Below are positions 5,446 through 64,000 of a DNA stretch of 64,000 nucleotides, in pieces. This DNA is from a virus: IMG/VR virus record IMGVR_UViG_3300044451_000434, positions 100,108-164,107 of that record. The stretch is one strand, 5' to 3'. How positions within the stretch are numbered: position 1 is the stretch's first letter; each line of letters starts with the position of its first letter. The position numbers and the translations under genes were made by a program. Under the pieces are notes generated by a model, which saw only the letters and a list, made by a program, of their open reading frames with translations, was not told where the DNA came from and ran no database searches.

Positions 5446-6050
5446 ATTCGGAAACCTGCTTTCTTCAGAGCATCTGCTATGGCAGATTTTCTCATCACGA
5501 AGGCATCATGATGTGCCGAAGCAGCCTTTGTTGGGGCATCTCCTGCAAGATCTGCAAACGAATCATTTTCAGTCGAAGGCTTGATGGCTTCGGGCTTTTT
5601 GCTGCGGAAATTAACTAAATAGTTCCGCCCCTCATGGCTCATTTCTCCATCCAATCCAAACATTGCACAGATCTGACGGCCAATTTCTGAAGCCCTAGAC
5701 TCTGTGATGCGAGACTTTTCAGTCGCCGAAGGTATCATGAAAGACCCACTCAACTGACCTGATCCAATCGAAGATCTCTGCTGAAATATTTTTCTAGAGA
5801 TCTTCGGGTCTGTCAAATGCCTTGGCTGAACACCAAGATCTTCTAAGACTGAAAAAACATGCTCCCTCAAAGACATATCCATTCCCCCGTTCGATGCAGG
5901 CGCCTGATCCTGTGACGGGGCGGATAGAGGAGCTGAACTGCCCGTATCCATATAGACAGACCCTATGTCAGGCTGGGGTATCTGTTCATCTGCCAACTTG
6001 AAAAGTTGGCTCTGCATATGCCTGCGTCGACCTACCGGCAGGAAAGACAT
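5442..6050 (-). CDS. Unknown head-module protein (202 aa)
   Basis: I take the ATG at 6050, preceded by GGAG nine bases upstream, over a GTG one codon earlier. The N-terminus is basic (PVGRRRHMQSQLFKLADEQ) and includes another FKLA-type tag. The middle has a helical block (LREHVFSVLEDLGVQPRHL) and the rest is polar. Stop overlaps the next gene by ATGA. No known family. Confidence 0.7.
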   Translation of the reverse strand: MSFLPVGRRRHMQSQLFKLADEQIPQPDIGSVYMDTGSSAPLSAPSQDQAPASNGGMDMSLREHVFSVLEDLGVQPRHLTDPKISRKIFQQRSSIGSGQLSGSFMIPSATEKSRITESRASEIGRQICAMFGLDGEMSHEGRNYLVNFRSKKPEAIKPSTENDSFADLAGDAPTKAASAHHDAFVMRKSAIADALKKAGFRI

Positions 6051-6053
6051 CAC

Positions 6054-6737
6054 TCAGTTCTCCGTGTCAAGAACAGCGTCTATAAATTCCTTGGGCCAAA
6101 CATTGGACCAATATGAACGGAACTTGCCCTTCTGCTTTTCAGTGAGATTGGCTATCTTTACAAACTTCGGAGACCTAGACGCAGCCTTCGCTGACCAACC
6201 GGCCTCCTCGGTCATACCGCTAACTTCTTCAGCATCGTCGGCAGCATAAGATGTGCCGCATGCCTCGCATGAGCCTGACTCCTTTGAGTCATAGCCACAC
6301 CCAGTGGCAGAAACAGCACCCATAGCCTCTGCGATTGCCTCGTCAGTAGAGTCGTCTTCAATTTCCACATCGGTATCGCAATCCTCCGCCAAAACGAGCA
6401 AGACTTCATCGTCATTAACCTTGATCACATCGGCAACCTTGACGGTGTGATACGATTCTGCTTCCTTCTTCTTCTTCTTCTTATATTTGGCGAGTTGCGG
6501 AGAAACCGCGCCCTTCACAGTCTCCTTGCCAACAGATTTTTTTTCCTCATTACCCTCACGCTCCTCGATCTTCTCCCTGATGAAGGCGGGCAATTCTTTC
6601 TTAGCCTCTTTCTTAAATACTTGGTGCGCATCGACTGCAGATGCCTGCTTTTTCATCCCTCCTGCGACATCCTGTATGATGTCATTAAAACTGCGGGACG
6701 GACCACTAACTGAAATTTTGTTGCTGAAGAACTTCAT
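6054..6737 (-). CDS. Unknown charged protein with Cys cluster (227 aa)
   Basis: Start supported by AAAGGAG six bases upstream. The first half is Lys/Glu-rich (AKYKKKKKKEAESYH), followed by a very acidic stretch (residues about 110-140) and a Cys group (C-G-Y-D...C-E-A-C-G) that may bind zinc. The C-terminus has FVKIANLTEKQKG and a W-rich end (KFRSYWSNVWPKEF). Opposed charge blocks and disorder resemble phage scaffold or internal proteins. No specific family recognised. Confidence 0.7.
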   Translation of the reverse strand: MKFFSNKISVSGPSRSFNDIIQDVAGGMKKQASAVDAHQVFKKEAKKELPAFIREKIEEREGNEEKKSVGKETVKGAVSPQLAKYKKKKKKEAESYHTVKVADVIKVNDDEVLLVLAEDCDTDVEIEDDSTDEAIAEAMGAVSATGCGYDSKESGSCEACGTSYAADDAEEVSGMTEEAGWSAKAASRSPKFVKIANLTEKQKGKFRSYWSNVWPKEFIDAVLDTEN

Positions 6738-6774
6738 AATTGCTCCTTTGTTGCTCTTTTCTCTCGAACCTTGA

Positions 6775-7365
6775 TCACATCCCGTCAGGGAGTGATGTTT
6801 TAGTGATTTCCCATGCCTCGTCTCTCAAGCAGGAAGCTGCCACACGCAGCCTGCCTGCAGTCGAAGGATCTTTCGACTGTATATAAGAGGCTACTCTGCC
6901 CATTTCGTTTGAACATCGAACCATTCTGTCAGGAATAGCCATTGAATGCTCTGCTACAGCTTCAGGAATGGCAATCCCCTTCGGAGTACCAGATGCCACC
7001 TTCGTCTCAATTATGGTCTGAAGGTTAAAATCTCCACCCATAGGTTCCTTTTCCCATGATTCACCCGAAGACGCATACTTATTCCAAGTCTTAACATCAC
7101 CAGAAATAGCAGACACGTATTCGCTATGACACTCACTCCATGCCTCCTGAGGGCGCATGCCTTGGGCACGCTTGTGTCTAAAACATCCCTGCCAGCATCT
7201 GCTGTTGCGTACAGCAACCCCCTGTATGCCCATATACTGAGCAGTCTTGACCATACATAGATCAGATGCAACCTTGTCAAGCACGACCGCCTGCGGTTTA
7301 CTGCCCTTGGCGTCAAGTCCGTTGGCGATGAGAACGATGTCCTTGATGATATCTGATATTTCCAT
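6775..7365 (-). CDS. Unknown protein (196 aa)
   Basis: Mostly helical protein with a Cys/His patch in the first third (NSRCWQGCFRHKRAQG...ECHSEY). The N-terminus MEISDIIKDIVLIANGLD is amphipathic and contains VASDLCMVKTAQYMG, similar in style to the Lys-x-Ala tags of neighbouring proteins. The C-terminus has two predicted helices. It follows the DUF192 gene by four bases with no clear ribosome site, suggesting translational coupling. Function unknown. Confidence 0.7.
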   Translation of the reverse strand: MEISDIIKDIVLIANGLDAKGSKPQAVVLDKVASDLCMVKTAQYMGIQGVAVRNSRCWQGCFRHKRAQGMRPQEAWSECHSEYVSAISGDVKTWNKYASSGESWEKEPMGGDFNLQTIIETKVASGTPKGIAIPEAVAEHSMAIPDRMVRCSNEMGRVASYIQSKDPSTAGRLRVAASCLRDEAWEITKTSLPDGM

Positions 7366-7369
7366 GACT

Positions 7370-8212
7370 TTAGGTAACTACAAATTTACGAGTAAATGTC
7401 CTGCTTGGGAAAGAAAATCTAACGATTCTATTCAACAAATAATTTCTCGGCTCGCCAACGGTAGTGTCCCACGAAACAACCACCTGCCTGCGACTGGCTT
7501 GAGAAAAATGCATATCATGTGGTTCAATCTCTCTTGAAATCATTTTGCCACCCTCTGTCAAGTATTCCACAAGCATTGACTGTCTGTTTACTACAGACCA
7601 CCTGACTGCATCGCCAACTCCTGAAAAATTGGGAATTGGAATAGACGTAGAAATCGCAGAATCTGCTCCAGATCTAGCTGGATCTGTGGTTATTTCGACC
7701 CTATCTACGGGAACCTTGTCTGCCTGAGGCGGCGGGATTGAGGCAGCGATCTCCCCTTCAAAAGGCTGGAAAACCTTTTCTGGATCTACGATTTCGGGCT
7801 TCAAAGATGTTAGGGGCATTTTTTGGGCAATCTTATAACTTCTACTAAATATGCAACAGGGCGGATTTTCCTCTCTGCTGAGATAACACTCATCTCCAAC
7901 CCTAAAACCATTTTTGGAAAGCCAGCCATCAGGCAGTTCAACAGCCAAGTTGCATGGCTCAGAGGCCGCAACAGATGTCAAGTCGTGGGGCTTTATCCTG
8001 CCAACCGTCACAATTTTACCTGAAGGATTTACAAAGACCACGTCCAATGGCAAAAATGTATTCATGCCCCAAAAACTATGTCGATCTGGTCGGTCAAACA
8101 CAAAAGCCATACCATGACCGTCTTCCAATTCATGTCTGAACATCAAACCCCTCTCTCTCAGGTGTGGTTTGTCTGCCAACTCAACCACAACTCTAGAAAA
8201 CGGGCTATGCAT
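7370..8212 (-). CDS. DUF192-domain protein with long C-terminal extension
   Basis: 280 residues from the ATG at 8212, whose first bases overlap the preceding stop (ATGCATAG). An in-frame start 54 codons earlier would overlap that gene by 170 bases. Residues 8-115 match the DUF192 pattern: ELADKPHLRERGLMFR, then F-x-F-x...FWGMNTFLPLDVVFV, then VAVELPDGW-like and GDEC segments. DUF192 is a small beta-rich domain of unknown activity found in bacteria and archaea. The remaining 165 residues form a second unknown part with an Asp/Pro-rich linker and a beta-rich end. DUF192 in the middle of a phage head operon is unusual; the role is unknown. Confidence 0.75.
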   Translation of the reverse strand: MHSPFSRVVVELADKPHLRERGLMFRHELEDGHGMAFVFDRPDRHSFWGMNTFLPLDVVFVNPSGKIVTVGRIKPHDLTSVAASEPCNLAVELPDGWLSKNGFRVGDECYLSREENPPCCIFSRSYKIAQKMPLTSLKPEIVDPEKVFQPFEGEIAASIPPPQADKVPVDRVEITTDPARSGADSAISTSIPIPNFSGVGDAVRWSVVNRQSMLVEYLTEGGKMISREIEPHDMHFSQASRRQVVVSWDTTVGEPRNYLLNRIVRFSFPSRTFTRKFVVT

Positions 8213-8423
8213 ATTCGGAGACAAAGAAGCCCCCACGAACAAGTCGATCAGCGAAGTCCTCGCACTCATTTTCATCATCAAATTCGAGACGATATCCAGA
8301 TCCATGACGAAAAACATCGGCTCCGGCACCGCGAGCCTGCCTAACCGCTTTATCCAAGTTCCAAGCACGCTCAAAAGATCCTGAGAGTCTAGATGGTCTG
8401 TCTTTCAGTATTAAAATTCTCAT
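8205..8423 (-). CDS. Small unknown protein (72 aa)
   Basis: Starts at an ATG overlapping the upstream stop by ATGA and ends eight bases into the DUF192 gene with TAG. Basic N-terminal half (MRILILKDRPSRLSGSFERA) and acidic C-terminal half (YRLEFDDENECEDFADRLV). The beta-alpha-beta look suggests a compact single domain. No known family. Coupled translation with both neighbours supports it being real. Confidence 0.65.
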   Translation of the reverse strand: MRILILKDRPSRLSGSFERAWNLDKAVRQARGAGADVFRHGSGYRLEFDDENECEDFADRLVRGGFFVSEYA

Positions 8424-8767
8424 CGACGTGATATTCCTGTTTTAGCTGTGTTCTTGATGGCAAAAACACAATCGTCATCGTTAAGAATAACCGCTTCTAG
8501 GAGCCGCTTGCCACTTGCGGTAATCTTTATCATTTCACCTTGCCATTCTGCAAATCCCAAACTCTCTAGATTGATCAACTCGTCAGTTCTCAAGCCAAAA
8601 GGTCTTTTGAATGTGAGAGGCTCCAATCCAGCTTCGCCAGACTTGAAAAGTGAATATAAGACCTTTGCTGCCTTGCCTTTAGGATCACCGAATCCAGATA
8701 TTGCAGACCCCGATCTCTCACGCATAATGAAATCAAGGATAGAACTGTTTGCTACTTTTGGATTCAT
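8420..8767 (-). CDS. Small protein, possible winged-helix fold
   Basis: 115 residues from the ATG at 8767, which overlaps the upstream stop by ATGA and has GGAGG eight bases before it. An in-frame GTG five codons upstream is less likely. The C-terminal half (DELINLESLGFAEWQGEMIKITASGKRLLEAV) has the rhythm of a winged helix ending in a beta hairpin and Gly-Lys helix, as in small transcription factors. This is a shape impression, not a family match. It could instead be a structural connector. Confidence 0.65.
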   Translation of the reverse strand: MNPKVANSSILDFIMRERSGSAISGFGDPKGKAAKVLYSLFKSGEAGLEPLTFKRPFGLRTDELINLESLGFAEWQGEMIKITASGKRLLEAVILNDDDCVFAIKNTAKTGISRR

Positions 8768-9519
8768 CCCAAATGCCTCCACAGGTATTCCCTGTACTTG
8801 TACGGACTTTCATTTTTCGCGTTATCTATAAGATATGGCTCTGTTGCCAACTCTCTCCAATAAAACCCAGGTCTGAAACGAGGTTCATTGTATGCTTCAG
8901 TCCAAGAGCGATATCTGTATTGACTCTTGCGAGCGGTCGAATCACCCTCAATGCTCTCCTCTATATCCCTCCATGGAATCACGCGATCACCCATAGGAAG
9001 ATCTAGACGACCGTATGGACCATCCATAACAGAAGCAGTTTTTTGGGGGGATGAAGCACCGAACAACCCGTGCTTATATGAAAGGCGTGCAATCATGTAC
9101 TCATGAAGAGATATTTTGGAAAGCAGCGCAGATATTTCTGAACAAGTAGGAGTTGGCAGTTTTGCCACATCGAATGAAGCCATAAAGTTTATTATAATTT
9201 CATGCTTCATCTGATCATTTAGCCGATCCTTGGCTGACATGGTGCACAACCCTTCAAGAGCACACACAGCCATTCTTGAACCAACTACAGAGCATGAACC
9301 CGCAGAGGGAATAGATTCAAGAATGCTGCAAAGTGCTGTCCACAGGTCTTCAAGCACAAGAGCCAATTCATCGGCCCTTTTGGAGAGTGCTGATGGGTAA
9401 TCTGAAGCAAGAACCTGAATCTGAATCTGTGGATCAAAAACAACATCAACGCCAATCTCAACGCCGAGTCGTGCGAGTTCGATCTTAGCCTGATCAGGAC
9501 TTATCTTTGGAGTTGCCAT
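8764..9519 (-). CDS. Unknown head-module protein (251 aa)
   Basis: ATG with TAGGAG upstream. Largely helical (RADELALVLEDLWTALCSILE, residues about 48-68, and DRLNDQMKHEIIINFMASF), with a basic, aromatic C-terminus rich in Arg, Tyr and Trp (YRYRSWTEAYNEPRFRPG). No recognised domain. Overlaps the small 53-codon gene upstream and the winged-helix-like gene downstream. Position between terminase and portal suggests a head or connector role. Confidence 0.7.
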   Translation of the reverse strand: MATPKISPDQAKIELARLGVEIGVDVVFDPQIQIQVLASDYPSALSKRADELALVLEDLWTALCSILESIPSAGSCSVVGSRMAVCALEGLCTMSAKDRLNDQMKHEIIINFMASFDVAKLPTPTCSEISALLSKISLHEYMIARLSYKHGLFGASSPQKTASVMDGPYGRLDLPMGDRVIPWRDIEESIEGDSTARKSQYRYRSWTEAYNEPRFRPGFYWRELATEPYLIDNAKNESPYKYREYLWRHLG

Positions 9520-9655
9520 CGCACTTTGCTCCTACCAAAGAACTAGAATAATCCTTGTCGTAGATAAGGGTGAAATAACGGCACAAATTCTTGTGGTTTT
9601 TTATTCGCAGATTCTTCAGCACACGAGTTAATTTGTCCGTTGCGATTCTGACCAT
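9494..9655 (-). CDS. Small basic protein (53 aa)
   Basis: Short frame whose ATG follows the previous gene's TGA directly, and whose end overlaps the next gene's start. Sequence begins MVRIATDKLTRVLKNLR and is rich in Lys, Arg and aromatic residues (NHKNLCRYFTLIYDKDY). Tight packing on both sides and natural composition support coding. Function unknown. Confidence 0.55.
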   Translation of the reverse strand: MVRIATDKLTRVLKNLRIKNHKNLCRYFTLIYDKDYSSSLVGAKCDGNSKDKS

Positions 9656-10177
9656 TCAACCTATCTCCGTGTTCATCATCCCAAAAATGGAATCATCAAC
9701 AATTGCTGCTTTAGATTTTTTAGTTCGGAACGATTTACGTGTAACCTTCTTTTCGGATTGTGGTTGTTTGTCTTTATTTACACACTCATGCTCGCTAGCA
9801 GCATCGGAAGAAACCGAAGCCAAGGGAGAGGAGCATGACAGATATCCGACACTCACTAGTTTCATAGCAGTCTCCATATTTGGATCAGACTTTTTCAGTA
9901 TGAAACGCTGGTTGGGGGCCAATGTTCTCTTCAAAAAAGCGACCATGATACCACCCCCCTTAACATTCAAAAACTCTATTTCATCCTCGGATGTCTTGCT
10001 AGACACCCCCTCATCCGCAGAATCAAATGATATGTAGCCTTTCTTCTTAGCCCACAACACATCCTCGTGAGATGCCAATTCGTCTGGCAAATCAACAACA
10101 ACACCAGGCTTGAACTTCTTTTTTATCGAAGATAAAATCAATTCACCCTTTAGTGTTTTAGAAACTATTACTTTCAT
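9656..10177 (-). CDS. Unknown protein (173 aa)
   Basis: Strong ribosome site (AGGAGG) nine bases before the ATG, which also overlaps the upstream stop by ATGA. The N-terminal 75 residues look folded (KFKPGVVVDLPDELASHEDV, similar in feel to phage head-completion proteins). A Ser/Lys-rich basic tail follows (EKKVTRKSFRTKKSKAA). No family recognised with confidence. Confidence 0.7.
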   Translation of the reverse strand: MKVIVSKTLKGELILSSIKKKFKPGVVVDLPDELASHEDVLWAKKKGYISFDSADEGVSSKTSEDEIEFLNVKGGGIMVAFLKRTLAPNQRFILKKSDPNMETAMKLVSVGYLSCSSPLASVSSDAASEHECVNKDKQPQSEKKVTRKSFRTKKSKAAIVDDSIFGMMNTEIG

Positions 10178-10620
10178 ATCTTTCTCCTCCTGTGTAACAT
10201 TTTTTCCATGCTGCCCGAATTAGGAGCAGCCTCAAATATGGCTCTTCCACGAGAAATTGGAGACGACGGGTCTGCCCATGTTCCATCAGCAGTTCCCTCT
10301 CCATATTCAGTCTCGCCTTCAAGTCTTTCTCGACCCGAGAACGGACTCTCTGGATCACCATAGTCAAAATTGTGATGATATTCTTCCTTATGCTCGCTAG
10401 GGCCCTGTTCCCAAAGCATGAAGTCAGCAGCCATGTCAGGTGGGTCTTCGGCAACACCCTGAGACATGGGCGTTGTAATTTTATTACCCTCTCCGCTGTT
10501 GGGGCCCCGATACAATTTGTATGGATCAACCCTATCAAAGGGGTGAAGAAATGTATTTGGCACAGTTGTACCAAGGTTGGCAACCTTGACACGCCAACTG
10601 TAGCTCTCAAGGTTAAGCAT
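10174..10620 (-). CDS. Unknown acidic protein (148 aa)
   Basis: Start four bases after the upstream stop; ends by ATGA overlap. Rich in Gly, Glu, Pro and Asp in the middle (GRERLEGETEYGEGTADG), with a basic end (EKMLHRRRKI). Probably partly disordered. The opposite overlapping frame on the same strand has poorer composition and was not chosen. Function unknown; likely virion-associated from context. Confidence 0.65.
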   Translation of the reverse strand: MLNLESYSWRVKVANLGTTVPNTFLHPFDRVDPYKLYRGPNSGEGNKITTPMSQGVAEDPPDMAADFMLWEQGPSEHKEEYHHNFDYGDPESPFSGRERLEGETEYGEGTADGTWADPSSPISRGRAIFEAAPNSGSMEKMLHRRRKI

Positions 10621-10623
10621 CAG

Positions 10624-11316
10624 TCACCCAATATCCATATAGGAAGACAATATGTTTTTCTTACGACTGTTCAACTTCAATATTTCAGATGCTTCATCCT
10701 TGTGCAACTGCCTTTCCTCTGAAGCAGCAGCAAGCCTGATTTCAAAAAGTCTTCTGTCAATCGAAAGTAGATTTGACTGAGCTTCCTTTATAACGACATC
10801 TTTACCTATATTCTTGAGATTTGATGGCGCATCTTCAATAGGAAGATAGCCAGTGTTACTTATACGCCCTGCTCTGTTAGCAACAAGCGAATCTTCTATA
10901 TCCACAGGATCAACATCAGGACTACCAGTATTGAAGTGCAGCGAAAACAGATCTCTCTCGCCCTTCTTTGCCTCTGCGTATGCATTCCTGAATTTCTGGT
11001 CGAAAGCTTCACTTGTCATGTTTATATCAGAAACAGGAGAAGAATCGCGAGATTTACGGGAAACAAGATCGCTATCCTCGCCTGAAGAATACTCATCGAG
11101 GCGTGCCTCAACAACCCTTGTGGCATATTTTTCATCCCGCTCTGCCAACATCTGAGCAACCGACTTGTCAGCTTCGTCGCCATGAGATTCATCTATTGCC
11201 CGAGGAAGACTCGTGTCATTTATGAACGATGTCTCGTTGTCTTTCCTGTTCTGCTCCAAAAGTTGTTCTCTTGATGCAGATTTAATCAAACCCATACGTC
11301 TCAAAAAGTTAAACAT
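10624..11316 (-). CDS. Unknown protein with C-terminal coiled coil (230 aa)
   Basis: I start at the ATG at 11316, since AGGAG in the last codons of the terminase gene lies eight bases upstream; a longer version would run back into terminase. N-terminus MFNFLRRMGLIKSASREQLL, middle acidic and polar, C-terminal third helical with heptad character (SIDRRLFEIRLAAASEERQL). First gene after terminase, so a head or neck role is plausible. No recognised family. Confidence 0.7.
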   Translation of the reverse strand: MFNFLRRMGLIKSASREQLLEQNRKDNETSFINDTSLPRAIDESHGDEADKSVAQMLAERDEKYATRVVEARLDEYSSGEDSDLVSRKSRDSSPVSDINMTSEAFDQKFRNAYAEAKKGERDLFSLHFNTGSPDVDPVDIEDSLVANRAGRISNTGYLPIEDAPSNLKNIGKDVVIKEAQSNLLSIDRRLFEIRLAAASEERQLHKDEASEILKLNSRKKNILSSYMDIG

Positions 11317-59566: not shown

Positions 59567-59742
59567 ACCTTCTACATCTCCTGTATATTTTTCGACTTGA
59601 GTCTTTCCACCTCAATTACCAACTGCTAGACAAGTATGTGGGCATCCTTCACCAGTCTTGAAAGCCGTGATGACTCCACCTCTGAGCGGAGCAACTTCCT
59701 GATGGTGGATATTTCACTTGGATTGAGGTGACTCAGCGGCAT
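59563..59742 (-). pseudogene. Small helical ORF with two in-frame TAG codons
   Basis: The frame from ATG 59742 reads 38 helical residues (SEISTIRKLLRSEVESSRLS...), hits TAG at 59626-59628, continues QLVIEVERLKSKNIQEM, hits TAG at 59572-59574, then ends KV-TGA. That TGA overlaps the AdoMet-decarboxylase ATG by four bases, like true gene junctions in this genome. So the full frame looks like one gene with two amber codons. It may be a pseudogene or amber readthrough; a short 38-residue gene ending at the first TAG is the plain alternative. Confidence 0.4.
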
Positions 59743-60211
59743 CTTCGGTCTTTGCACGGACAAACTCCTGTCGGGGCATGTATGGGAAAGACACCTCTCT
59801 TGCCTCGACGCCCTGAGGAGTGTTCTGATCTGAAATGAGCACCACAGCATGGGCATCGAACGAGGTTCCATCCGCCCGACGGAATACATGAACGCAGCGG
59901 GTGTTCTGCTGTTTTCCCTCGACATCAGCAGGATGCCATTCATCTTCTGCCCCCGTGAGCGGGGTGATGACCTGCATTTGGGAGAGACGACCGAATAGAG
60001 AAGACGCAAGCCACCTGCTTCGGTCGTCTCCAGGAAGTCCATCAAGGATCTCAAGCATCCTCAGCACTGACCTCTCGATGCGTATGATCCAGGGGTCTGT
60101 TGCGGAGCCCTGTCCAGCAGACTCTCTTGCCGTGGTGGCAGTTTTAAACTCCGAACGGGCAAAATCCGTAAGCATCGATGCGTTCAATTCCTTTACAACT
60201 TCAGTTGTCAT
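59714..60211 (-). CDS. Conserved phage-type unknown protein (165 aa)
   Basis: ATGA overlap with thioredoxin. Helical first third, then VITPLTGAEDEWHPADVEGK, QNTRCVHVFRRADG, DAHAVVLISD and SFPYMPRQEFV. The L-T-G-x-x-D-E-W...Q-N-x-R-C-x-H-V-F...F-P-Y-x-P order is one I associate with a small phage family of unknown function. Intact, with no odd stops. Confidence 0.7.
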   Translation of the reverse strand: MTTEVVKELNASMLTDFARSEFKTATTARESAGQGSATDPWIIRIERSVLRMLEILDGLPGDDRSRWLASSLFGRLSQMQVITPLTGAEDEWHPADVEGKQQNTRCVHVFRRADGTSFDAHAVVLISDQNTPQGVEAREVSFPYMPRQEFVRAKTEDAAESPQSK

Positions 60212-62109: not shown

Positions 62110-63132
62110 TTACAGATTTATTATTTTGCTGTCGAATATCCCTGCCGACCTCAAGCCAGAAATAAATGATTCACCCATTGCCCCTGGGCCCCATGTGCTG
62201 AGGGCAAACATTGAGCATTTTTCCCTGTCAAGTTGCATAGCAAGCATAGCAGACTTACGAAGATTGCTGTCACAAAATCCTGTTATGCCGTCAGCGATGC
62301 TCTCGTCAGTTGCTTTGTTTTTAAAACCAACAGAAGGCAGTCCACAGCATGCAGCTTCCAAGCAGACAAGACCAAGCGTGTCAGACATGCTTGGAAATAC
62401 AAGACACCTGTGCCTACGCATCTGATCTGCTAGAGAAAATTTGTCAAGCCTTCCGAGCATTCTTATGTTTTTGTGTTTTAGCATCTCATGATGCTCCATA
62501 GGACCTGATCCTGCAATTGAAACAAGAAGCCCGACATTAGCTAGTTCTCTTAGATGTTCTAATCCTTTTTCGGGAGATATTCTGCCTGCAAAAAGCAATT
62601 GTCCATCCAATTCAGAATATTCATATTTAAAGCATCTGTCCACGCCTCCGCGTAATACTGCAGATTTTTTCCCCCCAAGTGAACACGCAAATGAGTCTTT
62701 TGAGTTTCTGAAGAATCTGACATCAACTTTTGCTGTCCTTTTCGTGAGCCATCTTCCGAAAAGACCCCCTAATATTGGGATCATATTATTGAAAATAGAA
62801 TCCCAATCTGTGTGACTGCATGAACTGGTTGTTATACCCCTCTTTTTTGCAATTGTTAGACCGCATAGTCCCACTATCCCCTCTGTAGCAATATGGACAT
62901 GTTCAGGTTCAAATAAGTCTATCTTATTTTTCACAATCGACCATGCCGATAGCGGCGTGGCAATCGATAAGCCCGGACTGAATCGACCAGCAGGTATGCA
63001 TTTTATCCCTTCAAGATCAACCACCTGAACTTCATGTCCCATAGAAGACAACTCCGATGAGAGCCTGCTGACACCGACTGCAACTCCGTTCATCTGTCCC
63101 GAGTCAGTGTCTGTGACTATAGAGATCTTCAT
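62110..63132 (-). CDS. GT4 glycosyltransferase, Agt-like (glycolipid synthesis)
   Basis: 340 residues from the ATG at 63132, which overlaps the upstream stop by ATGA. GT-B fold: N-terminal M-K-I-S-I-V-T-D...N-G-V-A-V-G-V and the glycine-rich loop, V-H-I-A-T-E-G, then F-A-G-R-I-S-P-E-K-G and the F-P-S-M-S-D-T-L-G-L-V-C-L-E nucleotide-sugar site. Proteins of this type, paired with a PlcP-like phosphoesterase, make glycolipids (MGDG, glucuronic-acid-DAG) from diacylglycerol in phosphate-starved bacteria. The pairing here makes that role likely but not proven; a sugar transferase for another lipid or glycan is possible. Confidence 0.75.
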   Translation of the reverse strand: MKISIVTDTDSGQMNGVAVGVSRLSSELSSMGHEVQVVDLEGIKCIPAGRFSPGLSIATPLSAWSIVKNKIDLFEPEHVHIATEGIVGLCGLTIAKKRGITTSSCSHTDWDSIFNNMIPILGGLFGRWLTKRTAKVDVRFFRNSKDSFACSLGGKKSAVLRGGVDRCFKYEYSELDGQLLFAGRISPEKGLEHLRELANVGLLVSIAGSGPMEHHEMLKHKNIRMLGRLDKFSLADQMRRHRCLVFPSMSDTLGLVCLEAACCGLPSVGFKNKATDESIADGITGFCDSNLRKSAMLAMQLDREKCSMFALSTWGPGAMGESFISGLRSAGIFDSKIINL

Positions 63133-63872
63133 TTCGGTTTCCAGTGGTGTATTTCTAGGCTGCCATCGTGCGTCTCCCCGACCCACGAAGCATGTTCCAC
63201 CCAGTCGCCGCAATTGATGTAGGTGATTCCATCGATAATTCTCACCTCTGGATTGTGGATGTGCCCGCATATGACCCCGTCATAACCACGTCTTTTTGTG
63301 ATCGAAGCCATGGCGTTTTCCCAGCCAGTCATCCAATTAACTGCTCTTTTCACCTTGCGCTTGACGAACTTACTTGCCGACCATGGCTTCATTCCGCAGA
63401 GCCTCCGAGCCCTGTTGAGAAACTTTGACACCACCACTAGCATGTCATAGGCATGGCTTCCGAACACCGCAAGCCATGGTGCTAGCCTCACGGACGCATC
63501 TATCATGTCACCGTGGGTGACAAGAAACCTCCTCCCATCTGCGCACAGGTGGACGGTTTCAAGGGGTATCAGGCTGATGCCCGCGAACTCATCCGCAAAC
63601 TTCGCCCATTCGCGCATGAATTCGTCATGGTTTCCTGCCACCCAAAATGTCTTGCGCCCTTTACGTGCTGCCTTGAGAACCTTGATAATCGGTCGTGAAT
63701 CTTCCACCCTCCACCTCCACCTCCTGCGCAGGCGCCACCAATCAACGATGTCCCCCACGAGATAAATGGTTTCGGCATCAAGCGAATCGAGCCAGTCTGC
63801 TATTTGATCAACTTCAGCCCCGTCACTACCCAAATGCCAATCGCTTACGAAAACGGTTCTGAATTTGGGCAT
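63129..63872 (-). CDS. PlcP/LpxH-like metallophosphoesterase
   Basis: 247 residues. Metallophosphatase sites: Asp11-x-His13 (S-D-W-H-L-G-S), Gly40-Asp41 (L-V-G-D-I-V-D-W-W-R-L-R-R), Gly-Asn81-His82-Asp-Glu, His120-Gly-Asp and Gly-His204-x-His206. The W-R-L-R-R-R-W-R-W segment and the overall length fit PlcP, a phospholipase C that frees phosphate from membrane phospholipids in alphaproteobacteria, and also fit UDP-diacylglucosamine hydrolase (LpxH) relatives. Coupling to the Agt-like gene favours PlcP. No signal peptide. Confidence 0.75.
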   Translation of the reverse strand: MPKFRTVFVSDWHLGSDGAEVDQIADWLDSLDAETIYLVGDIVDWWRLRRRWRWRVEDSRPIIKVLKAARKGRKTFWVAGNHDEFMREWAKFADEFAGISLIPLETVHLCADGRRFLVTHGDMIDASVRLAPWLAVFGSHAYDMLVVVSKFLNRARRLCGMKPWSASKFVKRKVKRAVNWMTGWENAMASITKRRGYDGVICGHIHNPEVRIIDGITYINCGDWVEHASWVGETHDGSLEIHHWKPK

Positions 63873-63876
63873 GTTA

Positions 63877-64000
63877 TCACATTGGGGTAATTTTCCAACC
63901 AGATGCAGTCTTCACCCATTCGTGTGATTCCGCTGTTCTTCCGCCAAAAAGTCCTTTTAATCTACTGAAGAAACCTGGTTGACGGGCTCTATCTGTTTTG
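63877..64000 (-). CDS. Gene fragment at right edge
   Basis: Open frame from the right edge to TGA at 63877, 40 residues visible (FFSRLKGLFGGRTAESHEWV...). Start is outside the window. It lies four bases before the metallophosphoesterase, so it is in the same operon. Nothing else can be said. Confidence 0.5.
   Translation of the reverse strand, partial: KTDRARQPGFFSRLKGLFGGRTAESHEWVKTASGWKITPM

Follow-up and report, generated by a model that had tools for sequence, protein, structure and literature searches.

The closest described counterparts of the locus treated here are the plcP-agt operons of Phaeobacter, SAR11 HTCC7211, Methylosinus and Pseudomonas (PMC4796936, PMC9239053, PMC8528852). 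Bacterial PlcP generates diacylglycerol and phospho-alcohols, from which other phosphatases then free the phosphate (PMC3972451), and the products of bacterial Agt are mono-glycosyl diacylglycerols (PMC4796936, PMC8528852). For the Pelagibacter enzyme GTcp the catalytic and donor residues were shown to be essential (PMC8231724). In this work we analyzed a window of 64,000 nucleotides (bases 100108-164107 of the IMG/VR virus record IMGVR_UViG_3300044451_000434, which comprises 164,107 bases) that carries a plcP-like gene overlapping with a gene for an Agt-like GT4 glycosyltransferase. It is rather likely that both genes constitute a two-enzyme, phage-borne module for membrane-lipid remodelling, which would turn phospholipid via diacylglycerol into glycolipid and thereby spare phosphorus in infection. 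A preliminary description of the pair had arrived at a similar interpretation, which is partly supported by the analyses below; its account of sugar transfer to diacylglycerol by Agt agrees with the cited work, and its statement that PlcP releases phosphate itself has to be corrected to the release of phospho-alcohols.

Both genes are located on the minus strand. The plcP-like gene (63129..63872) encodes a calcineurin-type metallophosphoesterase of the PlcP family with 247 amino acids, and the agt-like gene (62110..63132) encodes the GT4 glycosyltransferase with 340 amino acids. The open reading frame (ORF) of the latter was listed from position 63270; the common start of its relatives (MKISIVTDT...) lies at 63132, and with this methionine as start the gene overlaps the stop of the phosphoesterase gene by the ATGA at 63129..63132 (minus strand), as had been described before. 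The same overlap is found in two other viral contigs, L002 and L128, and probably couples translation of both genes. Both proteins scored above the Pfam cut-offs (Metallophos 56 bits, Glycos_transf_1 55 bits), and among the ORFs of at least 100 amino acids called in the phage record each was the only strong match of its family. That the pair is phage-borne could be confirmed, as the virus record encodes a portal protein, a large terminase and tail proteins and is thus that of a tailed phage.

The phosphoesterase is assigned by sequence comparison to the PlcP type and not to LpxH. It reached 314 bits on a profile of bacterial PlcPs and 38 bits on an LpxH profile, and five LpxH proteins showed the reverse, with 338-410 bits on the LpxH profile and 21-56 bits on the PlcP profile, these five controls being also among the sequences from which the LpxH profile was built. 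On curated LpxH models the protein stayed far under the cut-offs (45.5 bits with a cut-off of 134, and 40.5 bits with the cut-off of 190.35 of TIGR01854), and in bacterial genomes with both genes the LpxH model gave 175-285 bits for LpxH and 31-56 bits for PlcP. In the tree, LpxH was split from the PlcPs including the phage protein with a support of 100/98. All metal-site residues (D11, H13, D41, N81, H82, H120, H204 and H206) are conserved in the alignment, as are the motifs DxH, GD, GNHD, HGD and GHxH, which bears out the preliminary description of a metallophosphoesterase with all family sites; the corresponding motif of E. coli LpxH is GNRD instead of GNHD. An AlphaFold model, calculated from an input alignment of PlcPs without the Mosig and E. 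coli rows, had a predicted local distance difference test score (pLDDT) of 84 and LpxH as nearest solved fold. LpxH is nearest by default, because no PlcP sequence was matched in a search of the PDB.

For the glycosyltransferase, the best match in all eight bacterial genomes searched was an Agt homologue (E values 1e-19 to 1e-25), and in seven of them it was the Agt adjacent to plcP; Bradyrhizobium has two nearly equal Agts, and the plcP-adjacent one came second to a paralogue encoded elsewhere that falls inside the Agt clade. GT4 enzymes other than Agt from the same genomes matched with 1e-12 at best. On a profile of bacterial Agts the phage enzyme scored 138 bits and viral Agts 362-395 bits, compared with at most 57 bits for the sampled general GT4s, with the exceptions of a Thiobacillus GT4 (L099, 242 bits) and a glycosyltransferase of a faecal phage (83 bits). 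Out of eleven catalytic and donor residues of GTcp (G16, G82, G85, H104, R190, K195, D256, T257, F258, G259 and E264) ten are retained, the sole change being a leucine in place of F258, and the catalytic His-Asp dyad is intact (H107/D251). The structural model showed a GT-B fold (pLDDT 89), and its closest matches in a fold search were retaining GT4 enzymes in general, so that the fold does not tell the acceptor; the PHROGs contained no informative family for this protein. Relatives of the glycosyltransferase are also frequent next to bacterial plcP, where they are encoded by the downstream gene on the same strand in 65 of 80 plcP loci.

The two contigs sharing the overlap carry the pair at 4280-5029/5026-6021 (L002) and 5989-6738/6735-7733 (L128). 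Their PlcPs are 68% (L002) and 67% (L128) identical to that of the window, and their glycosyltransferases 47 and 48%, respectively. A comparison of L002 with L128 showed purifying selection on both genes, with nonsynonymous (dN) and synonymous (dS) substitution rates of 0.06 and 1.25 for plcP and of 0.18 and 1.48 for the glycosyltransferase gene. The L128 record and the window have many further genes in common, largely collinear at 21-40 kb of the window and including a ribonucleotide reductase at 71%; a search of the L002 and L128 records for the terminase of the window was negative. A search of a phage collection at the nucleotide level yielded no relative, and when viral contigs were scanned at the protein level, the glycosyltransferase alone gave no match, whereas a scan with the PlcP alignment was successful.

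By an alignment-guided scan of IMG/VR, at least 577 PlcP-encoding viral stretches were found among the matches listed. Counts for this wider pattern refer to 61 non-redundant viral plcP loci, of which those other than the records with phage hallmark genes named here are viral according to the IMG/VR call, and some short contigs could be bacterial. Downstream of plcP, Agt was found in 20 and a GT2 in 22 of the 61 loci, and PstS was encoded near plcP in four, GT2 and PstS being identified by eye from the sequence or by the annotation of the record. The GT2-like glycosyltransferase is a conserved protein of about 236 amino acids (e.g., L161 6740-7450 and L192 6916-7626) and represents an alternative partner to Agt. 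In the tree, 15 viral Agts were monophyletic and sister to the SAR11 Agt. One 207-kb record (L205) is unambiguously T4-like, with terminase, portal and major capsid genes, and encodes plcP together with a true Agt; a large terminase is present in two more viral records with plcP and agt. In L205 the genes at 6001-10693 are plcP, agt and putative porin, glnK and amtB genes in a row, possibly a combined phosphorus and nitrogen island. In the cultured SAR11 phage Mosig, a Pelagibacter phage, a plcP homologue lies next to a gene with the annotation phosphate ABC transporter, in divergent orientation (L008 10903-12738), and no Agt was found in the genome of this phage. In another phage contig, genes for IscU-like and IscA-like proteins, recognized by eye from the translations, are located upstream of plcP (L164 4725-5418).

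Some cyanophage promoters bind the PhoB protein of the host (PMC10987575, PMC10976474), but a Pho box predicted in a phage need not be functional (PMC10976474). We defined Pho-box-like sites as matches to at least 12 of the 14 positions of YTGTMATNNNNYTGTMAY. Such sites occurred within 200 nucleotides upstream of viral plcP in 19 of 61 loci (31%) and upstream of 16 of 548 other gene starts (3%), with a Fisher p of 8e-12 that is optimistic, since these loci are relatives of one another and the consensus, which we loosened once they had been inspected, was partly chosen on them. Nineteen out of 23 sites lie at -37 to -62, several of them as 11-bp repeats. Close to the pair of the window, L002 and L128, no site of this kind was seen. 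As similar gene sets are found in many environmental viral sequences, viruses may mine the membranes of their hosts for phosphorus. We give an even chance to the broader view that membrane phosphorus salvage is widespread in viruses, with many environmental phages carrying plcP with Agt or GT2, often under control of host PhoB, for the conversion of host phospholipid to glycolipid, and with the lineage of the window having its own divergent, overlapping version.

In the proposed pathway, PlcP as an intracellular phospholipase C would cleave host glycerophospholipids into diacylglycerol and a phosphorylated head group, and the Agt-like enzyme would glycosylate the diacylglycerol with a nucleotide-sugar as donor, by which the bulk of the membrane would be kept as glycolipid. 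Host phosphatases would then release phosphate from the head group, which could become available in the infected cell for phage DNA. The sequences support a first enzyme of the PlcP type, an Agt-like second enzyme with intact catalytic and donor sites, a conserved overlap and the recurrence of the pair in phages; the substrates, the sugar used and a phosphate benefit to the phage, including the feeding of its DNA synthesis, we infer.

Several observations weigh against this pathway. The glycosyltransferase is just 24-30% identical to bacterial Agts, and in the best tree, which was calculated without Agt2 of P. aeruginosa, SqdX and PimA, the three phage enzymes of the window type are grouped on a long branch that lies immediately outside the Agt clade; their placement inside the clade was not rejected by an approximately unbiased (AU) test (p 0.207). 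The diacylglycerol-contacting Arg163 of GTcp is replaced by glycine in the enzyme of the window, with an Arg/Lys one place before, and for the contact residue Trp320 a tryptophan is found nearby, the alignment being offset by two. Because Arg163 is not conserved, the enzyme was classified as Agt-like: judged from its sequence it is a divergent relative rather than a strict Agt. Moreover, a search for Pho-box-like sites (at least 13 of 14 positions) was negative for the whole 64-kb window and for L002, and in L128 the surroundings of the pair were free of them; upstream of the window's plcP there are just 128 nucleotides before the record ends. The phage also has other glycosyltransferase and methyltransferase genes, and sugar chemistry on other targets is therefore possible.

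These points enter into the alternatives. The main rival to phosphate feeding phage DNA assumes the same lipid chemistry with a changed envelope as the benefit, for instance one that makes the infected cell resistant to superinfecting phages, cationic peptides or grazers. A ciliate ingests lipid-remodelled cells less readily (PMC9457565), the polymyxin tolerance of E. coli is raised by Agt glycolipids (PMC8528852), and the window lineage is devoid of a detectable Pho box; however, Pho-box-like promoters on sister viral plcP genes and the nearby pstS in four of the 61 loci make a common phosphate theme the simpler reading, and we regard the envelope explanation as unlikely. Somewhat less probable still is a true PlcP beside a glycosyltransferase that acts on host lipopolysaccharide, the capsule or the virion, the adjacency being incidental or serving glycan modification. 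The long branch outside the canonical clade, the lost Arg163 and the further glycosyltransferases of the phage would fit such an acceptor, whereas the Agt profile score of 138 bits, exceeded or approached among the sampled GT4s only by the two exceptions given above, the reciprocal best matches to Agt homologues and the start/stop overlap kept in three phage contigs argue against it. An LpxH altering lipid A next to an unrelated glycosyltransferase appears very improbable: such genes are annotated as UDP-2,3-diacylglucosamine diphosphatase and LpxH provides the closest solved folds, but profiles, curated cut-off and tree are all on the side of PlcP, as is the GNHD motif, and an LpxH identity was rejected on these grounds. 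Neither of the placements regarded as decisive against the pair in the preliminary description was obtained, as the phosphoesterase falls outside LpxH and the nearest relatives of the glycosyltransferase are Agt-type lipid glycosyltransferases and not capsule or O-antigen enzymes.

Upstream of plcP the 3' end of a further ORF was read from the sequence (63873..64000, minus strand), with its TGA 4 nucleotides before the ATG of plcP. Since the window comprises the last bases of the record, its right end is the end of the record, by which this ORF is cut. The short distance to its stop suggests that the pair is part of a longer transcript, which probably begins further upstream, past the record end. 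About 2 kb from the pair a Tad3-like protein is encoded (59714-60211, minus strand; 50.9 bits on Pfam PF25185, Type I Thoeris inhibitor), likely an anti-defence gene by its similarity. Further left, the record contains a minor tail protein gene and several very long ORFs that matched no family: in its left 100 kb (L212-L216) ORFs of 1,000 to 3,528 amino acids form a row, and those scanned had no PHROG match, the best hit being a weak fibronectin match.

The preliminary description named no precedent for such a pair in a phage, and our literature search, which covered only a minority of subscription papers and no bioRxiv preprints, found no report of plcP or plcP-agt in a phage either; the term "plcP" is absent from the text of PMC10987575. 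Surveys of eastern Mediterranean surface water and Lake Baikal list "lpxH" as a viral gene (PMC10653327, PMC9611531), which is possibly PlcP under another name, and the pair may account for these genes. Likewise, metagenomic plcP counts, a marker of phosphate stress (PMC9457565), may contain virus genes. From the proposed pathway it is predicted that infected cells have glycolipid-rich membranes, and the cultured pelagiphage Mosig offers a direct test system for the PlcP half.

Compared with known systems, the pair resembles the bacterial plcP-agt operon in the order of plcP and a GT4 gene on the same strand, in the PlcP family and in the catalytic and donor motifs of the glycosyltransferase, and differs in being phage-carried and ATGA-overlapping, with a glycosyltransferase of 24-30% identity and no Pho box found in its lineage. 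With GTcp, the Agt of Candidatus Pelagibacter HTCC7211 (PMC8231724), the phage enzyme shares the GT4 family, the GT-B fold, the His-Asp dyad, a length of about 335-340 amino acids and the motifs GRxxxEK and FPSxxDTxG; unlike GTcp it lacks Arg163, has leucine for Phe258 and is placed just outside the Agt clade. The phosphoesterase has a calcineurin-like fold in common with LpxH, from which it is separated by its own clade, its own profile and a different active-site motif. Like the phage genes for phosphorus acquisition (pstS, phoD, ugpQ and others), the pair is phage-borne and predicted to raise phosphorus supply; in the available parts of the respective reports (PMC10987575, PMC10976474) the genes named import or mineralise phosphorus and none remodels membrane lipid, whereas the pair described here would tap the host's own membrane.
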